This document shows positions 1-32,054 of a stretch of DNA of 64,000 nucleotides, piece by piece. Within the stretch, counting starts at the first letter, position 1. Every line of letters begins with the position of its first letter. Position numbers and translations under genes: made by a program. The DNA is taken from contig JAAXUP010000004.1 of assembly GCA_013335935.1 (NCBI GenBank), positions 1 to 64,000 of the forward strand, written 5' to 3'. The notes below the pieces were generated by a model. That model was not told where the DNA came from and searched no databases. It saw nothing but the letters and a program-made list of their open reading frames with translations. This DNA comes from Eubacteriaceae bacterium (GTDB taxonomy: Bacteria; Bacillota; Clostridia; Eubacteriales; Alkalibacteraceae).

Positions 1-254
1 ACCAAGTTTTGATTGAAAAATCTGTTCTTACAAATAAAAAACGTACCACTGCTTACTATGCGCATCCCTATAGTTCATGGGAAAGAGGCAGCAATGAAAA
101 CACGAATAAAATCATCAGACGATTTGTACCCAAAGGTTCAAATATCGGAAACTACAGCAAAAAAGCGATTAAACAAATCGAACAATGGATCAATAACTAT
201 CCACGCAAAATCTTAGGTTATCAGACTGCATCTGAAGTATACGAAGCAGCATAA
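1..254 (+). mobile_element. IS30-family transposase, C-terminal part (cut by window edge)
   Basis: The frame is open to the left edge and ends in TAA at 252-254, so only the C-terminal ~83 residues are visible. They carry the IS30 DDE-transposase ending: a YYAHPYSSWERGSNENTN stretch with the catalytic glutamate, then RRFVPKG and a WINNYPRKILGYQTASEV tail. In this family the enzyme cuts and joins the ends of its own element. The following bases (about 285-325) include AAGTTGGACATTTAATATTG, which may be the right terminal inverted repeat, but the left end is outside the window so this cannot be confirmed. Whether the gene is intact upstream is unknown. Confidence 0.85.
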
Positions 255-343
255 GTAATGAATGAGAACACTATAATATTTATTTAAAAAAGTTGGACAT
301 TTAATATTGCACTTTTTATGACAAGGGACTAGCGACTATTGCC

Positions 344-372
344 TTGACAGCGGTAGCAGATAACAATATAAT
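344..372 (+). promoter_or_regulatory. Sigma-A promoter of the raiA-type RNA
   Basis: TTGACA at 344-349 and TATAAT at 367-372 are both perfect consensus hexamers separated by 17 bp. Transcription should begin near 379, where the 5' arm of a long-range stem starts. There is no open reading frame with a ribosome binding site between this promoter and the terminator at 586-614. Confidence 0.85.
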
Positions 373-377
373 GTATA

Positions 378-615
378 TGCTTCAGGTCTGTGGTTGAAAA
401 TCGATGCCAGTCGCAGGCGAAACGATCCACGTAAGGTACCTTAAAATAAGTGATGCTGAGCATGGTGCGGCTTAGAAGTAAGACCGGCCAGTATAAAGCT
501 GAGAGAAGAAGTTGTGATGGAGATCCCTGAGCTAAACTTCCAGCCGGCGGGTGTGGGGGCAAAGACCAGGTCAGCTGAAGCAGATCCGATTGAATATTTT
601 CAATCGGGTTTTTAT
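378..615 (+). ncRNA. raiA RNA: Structured noncoding RNA upstream of hpf, probable raiA-motif RNA
   Basis: A consensus promoter and an intrinsic terminator (stem CCGATTGAA 586-594 with TTCAATCGG 599-607, then a T-tract) delimit a transcript of about 235 nt. Its two ends pair: TGCTTCAG at 378-385 with CTGAAGCA at 575-582, and GGTCT next to it with AGACC at 563-567. The interior is GC-richer than the surroundings and has no convincing coding frame. The next gene is hpf (raiA), which is the defining context of the raiA-motif RNA known from Clostridia and Actinobacteria. The identification rests on context, size and closing stem; I did not match the consensus base by base. Alternatives such as 6S RNA, SRP RNA or tmRNA were considered, and their hallmark motifs are absent. 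Confidence 0.7.
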
Positions 616-616: not shown

Positions 617-702
617 TTTATCCCGTATGTTTTCATTAAGGCGTGAGGGGTATAATATTAGAAATACACACAACTATATTTAAGCTAAAGGAGTTGTTAT
701 TT

Positions 703-1254
703 ATGCGTGTAATAGTGTATGGAAAAAATGTTGACGTAACAGCAGGATTAAAGAGTATGCTGGACACAAAACTTGCCAAGTTTGACAAGTATTTCGATCC
801 AGAAACTACTGAAGTGACCGCAACTTTAAGTACTCAAAAAGGAAAAAGGGGAGCGGCTAAACATATCCTGGAAGTGACTATAATACCTATTAACGGCACT
901 ATCCTAAGGGCTGAAGAGGCGACTGAAGACATGTACGCATCTATCGATATGGCGGTAGATACATTAGAAAGGCAGATGAGAAAGCACAAAACCAGGTTGG
1001 AGAAGAAGTTGAAAGATCATGCATCCATAAGGGTGGATTTATCTTCCATTACTCCTGAACCCAAATATGAAGAACCTAGTTTGGTCAAGACAAAAAGATT
1101 CCCTGTTAAACCCATGTCAAGTGAGGAGGCTACACTGCAAATGGACCTCTTGGGTCACAGCTTTTTCGTTTTCTTAAACAGCGAAACAGAAGAAGTGAAC
1201 GTGGTCTATAAAAGAAAAGACGGCAATTACGGTTTAATAGAACCAGCCATATAA
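703..1254 (+). CDS. hpf: Long ribosome hibernation promoting factor HPF
   Basis: A 183-residue long-form HPF (RaiA/YfiA family). The N-terminal domain (about 1-95, beginning MRVIVYGKNVDVTAGL) binds the decoding region of the 30S subunit. The C-terminal domain (about 125-183, with RFPVKPMSSEEATLQM and GHSFFVFLN) is the part that pairs two ribosomes into 100S dimers. Length fits the long Firmicute form. The ATG at 703 is preceded by AAAGGAG at 687-693; an in-frame upstream start at 643 lacks a ribosome binding site and would add 20 residues foreign to the family. A TATAAT at 651-656 probably gives it its own promoter after the RNA terminator. It stands alone, followed by a terminator. Confidence 0.95.
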   Translation: MRVIVYGKNVDVTAGLKSMLDTKLAKFDKYFDPETTEVTATLSTQKGKRGAAKHILEVTIIPINGTILRAEEATEDMYASIDMAVDTLERQMRKHKTRLEKKLKDHASIRVDLSSITPEPKYEEPSLVKTKRFPVKPMSSEEATLQMDLLGHSFFVFLNSETEEVNVVYKRKDGNYGLIEPAI

Positions 1255-2372: not shown

Positions 2373-3635
2373 ATGAGTTCAATAAGTAAAGAGTTTAAGA
2401 ATTTATTAGTATTCTTGGGTATTCTAAGCATTTCCTTGACCGCTTATATTTTTTTTAGATATCCTTTAAAATTTAATAGCGACTTCATGCTTTTCATCGT
2501 ATTAACGATCATTGCAGAATCCCTGGTAATTGTCACCTCTACAAGAGGGGGAGTCACATTGGGATTTGGAGTAATCATTCCGGTAGCCATTATTTTTGGT
2601 CCCAAAGGAGCGATCATATGTGCTGCATTCGGAAATCTGTTATCAATCTATAAAGTGGATAACCAATACAAGCACTTATTTAACATCGATGTCCATAAGA
2701 CCATTGGAAACTCAGCGAATTACATCATCAGCAGTGCAGTGAGTTCATTGTTTTATGTGATGATCAATGGCGAAATAGGAGTAACCAATATCTATAACTC
2801 CATGATTTTAATGCTTCTGACATCCTTGGTGTTTGTTGTGACAAATATGACCATCACAGGCTTTTTTATCATTAAACTCACCGACTACGATCCTAAGGAT
2901 GTATTTAAAGAAAATTTCAGCGGCCTCATCCCTAATGTGCTGGGGGTTAGCGCAGTCAGTATAATCATCGTTATCGCATATATCAATTTTGGCGTTGAAG
3001 CAGTCCTTCTTCTCTTCTTCCCATATCTTCTTATCAGATATTCCTTCCAGCTTGTGTTCGATATGAGACAAGCATATATCAATACAATAAAGGCGCTGTC
3101 ATCAGCATTGGAAGAGAAAGATCCTTACACACAAGGCCATTCAGAAAGAGTGGAAAAATATTCAGCTATTCTTGCCAAAGCCACAGGAAGAAAAATTGAC
3201 ATGCAACAGCTTCAATATGCTGCGATTTTCCACGATATCGGGAAAATTGGCATAATGGATACCATACTGAATAAGCCGGGAAAGCTTACCATTGAAGAGT
3301 TCGATGCCATTAAAGAACACCCTTCCAAAGGAGTCAGAATACTGGATAGTGTATCCTTCCTTAAGAAAGCAAATGAAATTATTGGTTCACACCATGAACA
3401 TTATGATGGAACGGGGTATCCCAATGGCCTGAAAGGTGATGAAATTCCTTTCGAGTCAAGAATTATCACAGTTGCAGATATTTTCGATGCGGTTACCACG
3501 GACAGGCCTTACAGGGGAGCAATGACTGACCAGGAGGCTTTGGAAATCATCACACAAGAATCGGGACGAAAGCTTGACCCCTATTTAGTTGAGCGGTTTC
3601 TTACATTATATAACGAAGGTAGGTTTGCAGAATGA
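2373..3635 (+). CDS. Membrane-anchored HD-GYP phosphodiesterase
   Basis: A 420-residue protein with about six to seven membrane segments in residues 10-225 (a MASE-like sensor region) and an HD-GYP domain in 245-415. The catalytic motifs are present: HDIGK at 287-291 and HHEHYDGTGYP at 340-350, so an active enzyme is expected. HD-GYP proteins hydrolyse cyclic di-GMP, in some cases other cyclic dinucleotides, using a two- or three-metal centre. The protein should therefore lower c-di-GMP at the membrane in response to an unknown signal. The downstream DUF5317 gene starts inside its stop codon (ATGA overlap at 3632-3635), implying translational coupling. I looked for a c-di-GMP riboswitch upstream and saw none. 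The ligand of the membrane part cannot be read from sequence. Confidence 0.9.
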   Translation: MSSISKEFKNLLVFLGILSISLTAYIFFRYPLKFNSDFMLFIVLTIIAESLVIVTSTRGGVTLGFGVIIPVAIIFGPKGAIICAAFGNLLSIYKVDNQYKHLFNIDVHKTIGNSANYIISSAVSSLFYVMINGEIGVTNIYNSMILMLLTSLVFVVTNMTITGFFIIKLTDYDPKDVFKENFSGLIPNVLGVSAVSIIIVIAYINFGVEAVLLLFFPYLLIRYSFQLVFDMRQAYINTIKALSSALEEKDPYTQGHSERVEKYSAILAKATGRKIDMQQLQYAAIFHDIGKIGIMDTILNKPGKLTIEEFDAIKEHPSKGVRILDSVSFLKKANEIIGSHHEHYDGTGYPNGLKGDEIPFESRIITVADIFDAVTTDRPYRGAMTDQEALEIITQESGRKLDPYLVERFLTLYNEGRFAE

Positions 3636-5335: not shown

Positions 5336-7843
5336 TTGTCTTTTTTTAAAAAAATATTTGGTGACTTTGATGACAGAGAAATCAAAAAACTTATGAAGAC
5401 CGTTGAACAAATAGAAATGCTGGAAGAGGAAATCCAGCAGCTTGATGACGACAAGCTAAAGGCAAAAACTCAGGAATTCAAAGAGAGACTTGAAAAAGGA
5501 GAATCGGAAGATGAGCTCCTCACAGAAGCCTTCGCGGTGGTCCGGGAAGCCTCCTGGAGAGTGCTGAAAATGAAACATTTTCCTGTACAGCTTTTAGGCG
5601 GACTTGTACTCCATCAGGGAAGAATTTCCGAGATGAAGACAGGGGAAGGTAAAACCCTGATGGCCACACTTCCGGCATATCTGAACGCGTTGAGCGGCAA
5701 GGGTGTGCATGTGGTAACCGTCAATGATTATCTGGCACGTAGAGACAGCCAGTGGATGGGACAGATCTATAATTTCCTTGGACTTACTGTGGGACTGGTC
5801 GTCCATGGCATCAGCTTTCAAGAGAAAAAAGAGGCATACGGAGCCGATATCACCTATGGGACAAACAACGAGTATGGGTTTGATTATCTCCGGGACAACA
5901 TGGTCATCCAAATCAGTCAAAGAGTACAAAGAGAGCTGAACTATGCCATCATCGATGAAGTCGACAGTATACTTATTGATGAGGCGAGAACGCCTCTGAT
6001 TATTTCGGGAAGCGGAGAAAAAAGCACTAAGCTTTATAATCTCGTTGACCATTTTGTAAAAAAACTAAAAAATGAGCAGGATGTTTCGATAGACGAAAAA
6101 GCGAGTTCTGTCGTCCTTACGGATGAGGGTCTTGTAAAAGCCGAAAAAGCCTTTAATATCGAAAATCTGGCCGATATGGAAAACATGGAGCTTTCCCATC
6201 ATATCAATCAGGCCATGCGGGCAATATTTATCATGAAAAGAGATAAGGATTATGTTGTTGCTGATGGACAGGTCATAATTGTTGACGAATTCACTGGAAG
6301 ACTGATGCCTGGCAGAAGATATTCCAATGGACTGCATCAGGCAATCGAAGCCAAGGAGAATGTGAAAGTGGAAAGGGAGTCAAAAACCCTTGCTACCATC
6401 ACCTTCCAGAATTATTTCAGAATGTATAAAAAGCTTTCCGGAATGACCGGTACCGCTAAGACGGAAGAAGATGAGTTTAAAACCATCTACAATATGGACG
6501 TCCTTGGCATTCCTACCAACCGGCCGATGATCAGGGAAGATTTAAGCGATGTCATCTATAAATCGGAAATGGGTAAGTTCAAAGCGGTGGTAGAGGAAAT
6601 CGCAAGCCGTTATCAAACAGGCCAACCTGTGCTGGTTGGAACAATTTCCATCGAGAAATCAGAGGTCCTCAGCAGCATGCTTAAAAGGACAGGGATTCCC
6701 CATGAAGTGCTGAACGCAAAGTTTCATGAGAAGGAAGCTGAAATCATAAGCCAGGCTGGACAGAAAGGTCAGGTCACCATTTCCACCAATATGGCGGGAA
6801 GAGGTACGGACATCATCCTTGGGGAAGGCGTTAAGGAGCTGGGAGGATTACATATCATTGGCACGGAAAGGCATGAATCACGCCGTATCGATAACCAGCT
6901 TCGAGGCAGGGCAGGAAGGCAGGGAGATCCTGGTTCCACCCAGTTTTTTATCGCCCTGGAAGATGATATCATGAGGCTTTTCGGATCGGAAAAAATCATG
7001 GGACTTGTTGAGAATATCGGACTGGCAGAAGATATGCCCATTGAGACGAAAATTCTCACCAGGGGGATCGAAAATGCCCAGAAAAAAGTGGAGGGACGCA
7101 ACTTCGATATCCGGAAGCATGTCCTTCAATATGATAATGTCATGAACAAGCAAAGGGAAATCATCTACTCCCAAAGAAAGAAAGTCCTGGAAGGCGGAGA
7201 CATTCACGATCAGGTTCTGAAAATGTTTGAAAGTTTTGTAGAAGAATCCGTATCCATCTACACAGGAACCAGCGAATACGCCGAAGAGTGGGATTTTAAA
7301 GGTCTTGAAGAGCATTGCAGGAATTTATTCCTGGAGGACGGTCAGCTTGAGCTAAACCTTGAAGGGCTGACGAGGGATGCCCTTACGGATCTGCTTTATG
7401 ACAAGGGAATCGCCATACTTGAAACAAAAGAAGCTGAAATCGGGAAAGAGCAGTACAGGGAGCTTGAAAGGGTAATCCTTCTAAGATTAGTCGACAGCCG
7501 ATGGATGGATCATATCGATGATATGGAACAGCTTAAGCAGGGCATCGGCTTGAGGGCTTACGGCCAGATCGATCCGGTCATCGCTTATACCAATGAAGGT
7601 TTCACCATGTTCGAAGAAATGAACAGAAACATTCAGGATGATATGGTACGATATTTGTTTCATATGGAAATCAAGAAAGAACCCATCGAAGACAAAAGGG
7701 ATGTCCTGGAGAATGTAACAACCAATAGGGATGAAGCTTCAAGAAAAGAACCGGTGATCAAAAAAGACAAGCCCGGAAGAAACGACCCATGCCCATGCGG
7801 AAGCGGGAAAAAATATAAAAAATGCCACGGTAAAACCGAATAA
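5336..7843 (+). CDS. secA: Preprotein translocase ATPase SecA
   Basis: An 835-residue SecA, the motor that pushes preproteins through SecYEG. Visible motifs: Walker A GEGKT at 103-107, [16 protein letters not shown], the [18 protein letters not shown] segment, [25 protein letters not shown] and [15 protein letters not shown]. The C-terminus carries the zinc-binding [14 protein letters not shown] motif that contacts SecB-like partners and phospholipid. I choose the TTG at 5336: GAGAGGTG at 5322-5329 is well spaced from it, whereas the in-frame GTG at 5327 lies inside that site. It is followed by prfB after 16 nt, the common secA-prfB order of Firmicutes. Length and motifs are normal. Confidence 0.97.
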
Positions 7844-12736: not shown

Positions 12737-12756
12737 TCTACAAGAATAATATTTTA

Positions 12757-12866
12757 ATCTTCAGGGCAGGGTGAAATTCCCGACCGGCGGTAAAGTCCGC
12801 GAACCTTAACAGGTTGATCTGGTGAAATTCCGGAACCGACAGTAAAGTCTGGATGGGAGAGGATTG
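12757..12866 (+). ncRNA. FMN riboswitch (RFN element)
   Basis: All hallmark blocks of the RFN aptamer are present in order: TCAGGGCAGGGTGAAATTCC, CCGACCGGCGGTAAAGTCC, GCGAACC, CTGGTGAAATTCCGG, ACCGACAGTAAAGTCTGG and ATGGGAGAGGAT. The aptamer binds flavin mononucleotide. The terminator at 12885-12911 follows directly, so binding should cause premature termination before ribU, a riboflavin transporter gene. This agrees with the known use of the element in Firmicutes. Confidence 0.97.
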
Positions 12867-12884
12867 CACTTATAACGATAAGCG

Positions 12885-12911: not shown

Positions 12912-12958
12912 TATTACCCTCGAGCTTAACGCAAGTCTTGATAGAGAAGGAGATCAAA

Positions 12959-13549
12959 ATGGAAAAGAACAGAACAAAATATTTAACAAGGGTAGCCGTA
13001 CTTACTGCTATCGCAGTCGCACTTATGCTTTTGGAATTTGTCATTCCAATATTCCCGGGATTTTTGAAATTTGATGCAAGCGATGTGGCTGCACTAATGG
13101 GGACTTTTGCACTGGGACCAATTGCAGGGGTCATCATTGAAGGATTGAAGAACGTCATATTTATGGGTCTTAGAGGTTCCATGACTGGAGGAGTGGGTGA
13201 ATTCGCCAACTTTGTGATCGGCAGCGCATGGATGATTCCGGTAGGATTGATTTACAAAAAAAACAAAAACAAAAAGTCGGCGATTATCGCACTTGCTGTC
13301 GGAGCGGTTTCCATGATCGTATTTGCCGCGGCAATCAATTATTTCGTAATGCTTCCGCTTTATGCAAAAATAATGCCGGTAGAAGCAATTATCGGAATGG
13401 GTTCTGCAGTTAACCCAAATATTGTAAGTTTGGAGACCCTGATCTTGTTTGGGATCACCCCATTCAATATTTTCAAGACCGTTACCATATCACTGATCAC
13501 TGTGCTTTTGTACAAAAGAGTATCACCGGTACTACACAAAAACATGTAG
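12959..13549 (+). CDS. ribU: Riboflavin ECF transporter substrate-binding subunit RibU
   Basis: A 196-residue integral membrane protein with five to six hydrophobic segments. The N-terminal TRVAVLTAIAVALMLLEF and the PGFLKFDASDVAALMG stretch are typical of RibU, the S component that captures riboflavin and docks on the shared ECF energising module. No ECF ATPase or T subunit is encoded nearby, consistent with a group-II system using a module encoded elsewhere. GAAGGAG ends 6 nt before the ATG at 12959; the upstream in-frame TTG (12938) is not supported by an RBS. Expression is under the FMN riboswitch upstream. Monocistronic, followed by a terminator. Confidence 0.95.
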   Translation: MEKNRTKYLTRVAVLTAIAVALMLLEFVIPIFPGFLKFDASDVAALMGTFALGPIAGVIIEGLKNVIFMGLRGSMTGGVGEFANFVIGSAWMIPVGLIYKKNKNKKSAIIALAVGAVSMIVFAAAINYFVMLPLYAKIMPVEAIIGMGSAVNPNIVSLETLILFGITPFNIFKTVTISLITVLLYKRVSPVLHKNM

Positions 13550-32015: not shown

Positions 32016-32054
32016 GAATATTGAAGTTTTTAACCTGTGGAAAGGGGTATTTGT

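Follow-up and report, generated by a model that had tools for sequence, protein, structure and literature searches.

A structured RNA encoded directly upstream of hpf, the gene of a ribosome hibernation promoting factor, raises the question of whether the RNA is a switch that controls its neighbor in cis or an independent transcript that acts elsewhere in the cell. The locus considered here lies at the start of a contig (C213) in the draft genome of a Eubacteriaceae bacterium (2.6 Mb in 268 contigs, 98% complete), of which a window of 64,000 nucleotides was analyzed; positions refer to this window unless stated otherwise. A preliminary description had proposed that an RNA of the raiA type is encoded between a sigma-A promoter and an intrinsic terminator, and had taken this class to be rare and of poorly understood function. 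The first of these attributes does not hold, since more than 2,500 species, distributed over Bacillota and Actinomycetota, have such an RNA (PMC11706538), and it was present in 63 of the 293 genomes that we sampled from the host's class. The second now applies only in part, as cryo-EM structures, action in trans and phenotypes of the growth phase have been published (PMC11706538; PMC11751092; PMC12286853). The RNA class itself is already known, and what the locus adds is comparative evidence on the purpose of the class.

Identity and Fold of the RNA

The assignment to raiA had been made dependent on a search with the Rfam covariance model, and this search returned a full-length match. It extends end to end over model positions 1-209 of RF03072 and places the RNA at 377-583 on the forward strand, with a score of 184.7 bits (E = 4e-47) relative to a gathering score of 101.3 bits. 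A genome-wide search recovered this single copy of raiA in the host. When the full Rfam collection was run against the 64 kb window, two matches exceeded their thresholds, raiA and an FMN riboswitch. The latter (12753-12868) precedes a gene (12938-13549) for the substrate component of an ECF transporter and presumably belongs to an ordinary riboflavin uptake system.

The long-range closing stem that had been proposed for the RNA is present, as 378-385 and 575-582 (forward strand) are paired at all eight positions and form the outer part of the Rfam P1 helix. This helix has a pair probability of at least 0.96 in the folded ensemble of the window RNA and shows compensatory changes at 10 of its 12 pairs, with 88% of cells paired, in an alignment of 41 homologues, drawn both from the host's order and from other Clostridia. 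A further pairing of 7 bp, which is drawn as a helix in Rfam, joins AGUCGCA at 409-415 to UGCGGCU at 466-472 on the same strand; all seven pairs are standard in the window, and 95.5% of the corresponding cells are paired across the 41 sequences. According to the description of the cryo-EM structure (PMC11751092), this pairing is the pseudoknot pk-1, which connects the P3 loop to the P5-P6 junction. Over the entire Rfam structure 85.3% of cells were paired in the 41 homologues, compared with 30-49% for structures slid by 1-3 columns and 75.3% for shuffles, and cells changed on both sides numbered 254 as against 92.8 ± 8.5 in shuffles. In addition, about 80 invariant columns, which make up a highly conserved core, are common to the window RNA and the 40 other homologues. 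The weak part of the structure is the helix in alignment columns 50-92, where 52% of cells are paired among the 41 homologues, and the pairs of the P4/P5 region of the window RNA are imperfect in the Rfam alignment. Since published structure models disagree over the region of columns 50-92 (PMC11706538) and the stem there is variable, this weak helix makes no case against membership in the class. The P5 region varies among functional orthologues as well (PMC11706538). In summary, the window RNA is a well-supported additional member of the known raiA/ModT class. Among the class-level genomes, unusual sizes of raiA were encountered in five genomes of family f39 (335-348 nt) and five of family f6 (164-178 nt), the size elsewhere being about 205 nt.

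Transcription of the RNA

The promoter at 344-372 on the forward strand (TTGACA-N17-TATAAT) agrees with the SigA consensus at 12 of 12 positions, as the preliminary description had it, and is the sole perfect match in the first 3 kb. Promoters of this type, counted at a threshold of at least 10 of 12 matches, immediately precede the RNA in 51 of 59 raiA loci but occur in only 1.8% of shuffled upstream sequences; the 59 loci comprise the window, 22 relatives and 36 named hpf loci, with one locus entering twice (as L002 and L024). The intrinsic terminator that had been noted beyond the RNA, at about 584-616 on the forward strand, consists of a stem-loop at 582-611 (core 586-607) and a T-rich stretch, and its hairpin forms jointly with P1 at a predicted probability of at least 0.99. 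The transcript is predicted to run from about 377-379 to about 615 and thus to measure approximately 235-240 nt, in agreement with the length expected in the preliminary description, and as judged by these signals raiA is here a transcription unit of its own, extending from a SigA promoter to its own terminator. An antisense open reading frame at 329-673 (114 aa) was rejected as a gene, being an open frame without further support.

Upstream of the promoter, the contig starts with the right end of an IS30-family element (1-311, forward strand), which comprises the 3' part of the transposase gene and the right terminus and was recognized by a match to NF033563. Comparison with a second copy on contig C202 places the right boundary at about 311, which leaves approximately 33 bp to the -35 box of raiA. 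Because the element ends there and relatives that lack the insertion share the conserved promoter (344 in the window), the possibility that the IS30 element supplied the promoter was rejected. The copy on contig C202 is itself partial and starts that contig, upstream of a glutamine synthetase-like gene. The short distance between the insertion and the promoter, together with the imperfect pairs of the P4/P5 region, might also be taken to indicate that the RNA is a degenerate passenger copy that has lost its function. However, its score ranks third of 23 among the relatives, its promoter is perfect and its terminator is intact, and the P5 region is, as mentioned, variable in functional orthologues too, so that loss of function appears extremely improbable.

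A Separate SigB-Type Promoter of hpf

As described earlier, the RNA is followed by hpf (703-1254, forward strand). Its product, a long-type ribosome hibernation promoting factor of 183 aa, contains the Ribosomal_S30AE domain and the associated C-terminal domain (PF02482 and PF16321) and passes the NCBIfam cut-off for HPF/YfiA (TIGR00741). On the 3' side of the RNA terminator, a SigB-type promoter (GTTTTC-N13-GGGTAT, 629-653, forward strand) precedes hpf and fits both the consensus of Bacillus subtilis (GTTTAA-N15±2-GGGTAT) and that of the wider Bacillales (KTTTW-N12-17-GGGWAW; PMC9847131). An element of the form GTTT-N14-17-GGG(T/A)A precedes hpf in each of the six family members examined and in a total of 25 of 100 hpf loci. 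Its frequency was 0.7% in mononucleotide shuffles, and the reverse strand yielded no occurrence. A stricter pattern, GTTTTN-N12-14-GGGTATAAT, occurs once genome-wide, in front of hpf. The host encodes one sigma factor of the SigB/F/G type (contig C68; TIGR02980, 254 bits at a cut-off of 234), which is part of an rsbV-rsbW-sigB operon, and in both the host and one relative GTTTAG-N13-GGGTAT lies just upstream of the first gene of this operon. The SigB-type promoters of hpf (629-653) and of the host sigB operon (around position 5446 of locus L114, minus strand) have spacers of equal length, 13 nt. These features suggest that hpf is transcribed separately from the RNA, from a SigB-type promoter; the dependence on SigB itself we infer, because the sigma factor scores below the SigB equivalog cut-off (195 vs. 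315 bits). A further SigB-like sequence, GTTTTT-N13-GGGTAT at 32026-32050, is located a few bases in front of a Rex-like frame that starts with MQRNSIKVSMAVVRRLPKY, and may be due to chance.

The arrangement of these signals bears directly on the possibility of a cis-acting riboswitch or attenuator, in which ligand binding to an aptamer at 377-583 would decide between termination and readthrough into hpf. Such a function would agree with the position of the RNA, which directly precedes hpf, always on the same strand, in 20 of the 23 genomes analyzed from the host's order, with the terminator placed between the two, and with the Rfam type label of the family ('Cis-reg; riboswitch'). However, the terminator is predicted to form alongside the closed RNA, and a search for an antiterminator competing with the window terminator found none, the longest competing complement within the RNA being one 8-mer; no substantial alternative pairing, and hence no coupled expression platform, was found. 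Moreover, a conserved promoter that belongs to hpf lies beyond the terminator, raiA also occurs without hpf, and in several relatives no terminator is clearly visible. Complementation in trans excludes cis action of the C. difficile homologue ModT in its own host (PMC11706538), and by the account given in the same paper of work cited there, trans complementation likewise excludes it for C. acetobutylicum raiA. This published trans action in two species therefore makes a cis-riboswitch of hpf very unlikely. The earlier proposal that the RNA is transcribed apart from hpf, and that this speaks against a simple cis-riboswitch, is thus strengthened by the conserved SigA promoter, the terminator and the separate promoter of hpf, as far as sequence signals can tell, as well as by the lack of an antiterminator and the published trans action.

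Genomic Neighborhood

In the remaining three of the 23 loci (L005, L012 and L013), raiA is not followed by hpf. The next gene was identified in two of these and encodes a glycosyltransferase in L005 and a small HD-domain protein weakly similar to RelA/SpoT in L012. In both L005 and L012 raiA lies downstream of a radical SAM maturase of the SCIFF peptide, as found by family search in L012 and by sequence likeness in L005. ComFC is a frequent upstream neighbor of raiA in the literature; of the 36 named raiA loci, 23 have it upstream, compared with 8 of the 32 hpf loci that lack raiA.

Downstream of hpf, a putative c-di-GMP phosphodiesterase with MASE9 and HD-GYP domains (2373-3635) is encoded within the hpf-secA cluster, three genes on from raiA. 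A link between this gene and raiA, which suggested itself because ModT alters c-di-GMP, was rejected: HD-GYP genes were equally frequent among hpf loci without raiA (6 of 39) and with raiA (6 of 33), and the gene is therefore linked to hpf and secA rather than to the RNA. A protein of 215 aa with no Pfam or NCBIfam match is encoded between hpf and the HD-GYP gene (1449-2096); it is kept in several distant Clostridia (31-39% identity), both with and without raiA.

Comparison with Known raiA/ModT Systems

Among the closest known systems, ModT of C. difficile is driven by SigA, expressed in the exponential phase and about as abundant as housekeeping RNAs (PMC11706538). The window RNA resembles ModT in its full-length match to RF03072, in the canonical SigA promoter directly upstream, in the stem-loop terminator just past P1 and in a transcript length of about 240 nt, which for the window is predicted. 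It differs in its downstream gene, which is hpf here and a PTS antiterminator gene in C. difficile, and in its single predicted terminator, with two isoforms as in C. difficile (215 and 260 nt) not being evident from the sequence. In addition, no ComFC gene is visible upstream of the window RNA, because the contig ends in the IS30 copy, and Spo0A was, unlike in C. difficile, not detected in the host genome. The raiA RNA of C. acetobutylicum, for which cryo-EM structures (9CXF, 9ELY) show a compactly folded monomer with two pseudoknots (PMC11751092; PMC12286853), shares with the window RNA the closure by P1, the 7-bp pk-1, the conserved core and a size of approximately 205-210 nt; however, it has no long isoform or predicted terminator (PMC11706538), whereas the terminator of the window RNA is strong. 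Within the host's own family, the raiA locus of Alkalibaculum sporogenes (L002/L024; NZ_WHNX01000004.1) has the same order as the window, namely the RNA, hpf with a SigB-type promoter, ORF2, the HD-GYP gene, a DUF5317 gene and secA. In contrast to the host, in which no Spo0A and one SigB/F/G-type factor were found, the A. sporogenes genome encodes Spo0A and three strong factors of this type.

Retention of raiA in Relation to Spo0A, GGDEF Proteins and SigB

Because Spo0A went undetected in the host genome and only one SigB/F/G-type factor was found, the host is very likely non-sporulating. Sporulation therefore cannot explain why raiA is retained in this apparently non-spore-forming organism, which does encode GGDEF proteins. 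Likewise, across the 293 sampled genomes, 63 of them with and 230 without raiA, sporulation was rejected as the reason for retention, as Spo0A was rarer with raiA (45 of 63) than without it (195 of 230), with p = 0.025 and no correction for kinship, and 18 of the 63 genomes keep raiA without Spo0A. c-di-GMP was similarly rejected as a conserved target, since GGDEF domains were present in 53 of 63 genomes with raiA vs. 169 of 230 without (Fisher p = 0.10, not corrected for kinship), and 10 of the 63 raiA genomes lack GGDEF domains altogether. One relative with a 97% complete genome (G016, locus L023) carries raiA 270 nt upstream of hpf, and neither Spo0A nor a GGDEF domain nor a SigB-type factor over the cut-off was found in it, so that none of the three can be the universal function of the class.

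Proposed Function

In C. difficile, deletion of modT extends exponential growth and raises the levels of tRNA and 5S RNA, reduces the expression of about 25% of the SigB regulon and of 45% of those genes that have a SigH promoter, changes c-di-GMP and impairs sporulation (PMC11706538). From the published trans action, growth phenotype and monomer structure, we take the window RNA to be a trans-acting RNA of the growth transition, and the explanation as a whole, that of a stand-alone, SigA-transcribed raiA/ModT RNA of about 237 nt that acts in trans and is no cis-switch on hpf, is one that we consider probable. According to this explanation, SigA would transcribe the RNA as a unit that stops at its own terminator. 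By homology to C. difficile, where this has been published, the RNA would be very abundant during growth and required for timely exit from the exponential phase. It would most likely be a scaffold to which a protein or ligand binds, with an input into the programs of stationary phase and stress, while hpf, expressed from its separate SigB-type promoter, would provide ribosome hibernation as one stationary-phase output. Three observations stand against parts of this explanation: the frequent adjacency to hpf is left unexplained by a function purely in trans, the c-di-GMP link in the published chain of effects is not universal, given the raiA genomes without GGDEF domains, and terminators are more obvious in some relatives than in others.

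Alternatively, the RNA might be a ribozyme or processing RNA that catalyzes or assists tRNA or rRNA processing or turnover as growth slows down. Its highly conserved tertiary fold would fit such an activity, which has been suggested from the structure (PMC11751092) and was raised as a possibility by the authors of the ModT study in view of the elevated tRNA and 5S RNA of the C. difficile mutant (PMC11706538). However, cleavage activity is not reported in the published ModT/raiA work cited here, and the changes in tRNA levels may be an indirect consequence of longer growth, so that we regard a catalytic role as unlikely.

For the preferred trans-acting RNA, a more specific, conserved role in lineages without sporulation is conceivable, in which raiA/ModT would time the entry into a state of SigB-dependent general stress response and ribosome hibernation. 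The SigA-transcribed RNA and the SigB-type hpf gene would then constitute a two-step switch, the RNA promoting the activation of SigB as growth slows and SigB subsequently bringing about the production of HPF. Such a switch is in line with the reduced SigB regulon of the C. difficile modT mutant and with the SigB-type promoter of hpf in the window, but it cannot be the whole story, since G016 keeps raiA beside hpf and has no SigB-type factor over the cut-off; we therefore put it forward as a tentative and rather doubtful extension.

Given that raiA is retained without Spo0A in 18 and without GGDEF domains in 10 of 63 genomes, and without a SigB-type factor in one, the effects on sporulation and c-di-GMP described in the model species are most plausibly outputs that lie downstream of a more fundamental role in the growth transition. 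The authors of the ModT study had argued from the occurrence of the RNA in non-spore-formers that its function is more basic (PMC11706538), and the present counts support this argument and extend it to c-di-GMP. A non-sporulating host such as the one described here would accordingly be a cleaner, and moderately useful, setting in which to find the basic role of the RNA and its binding partner.
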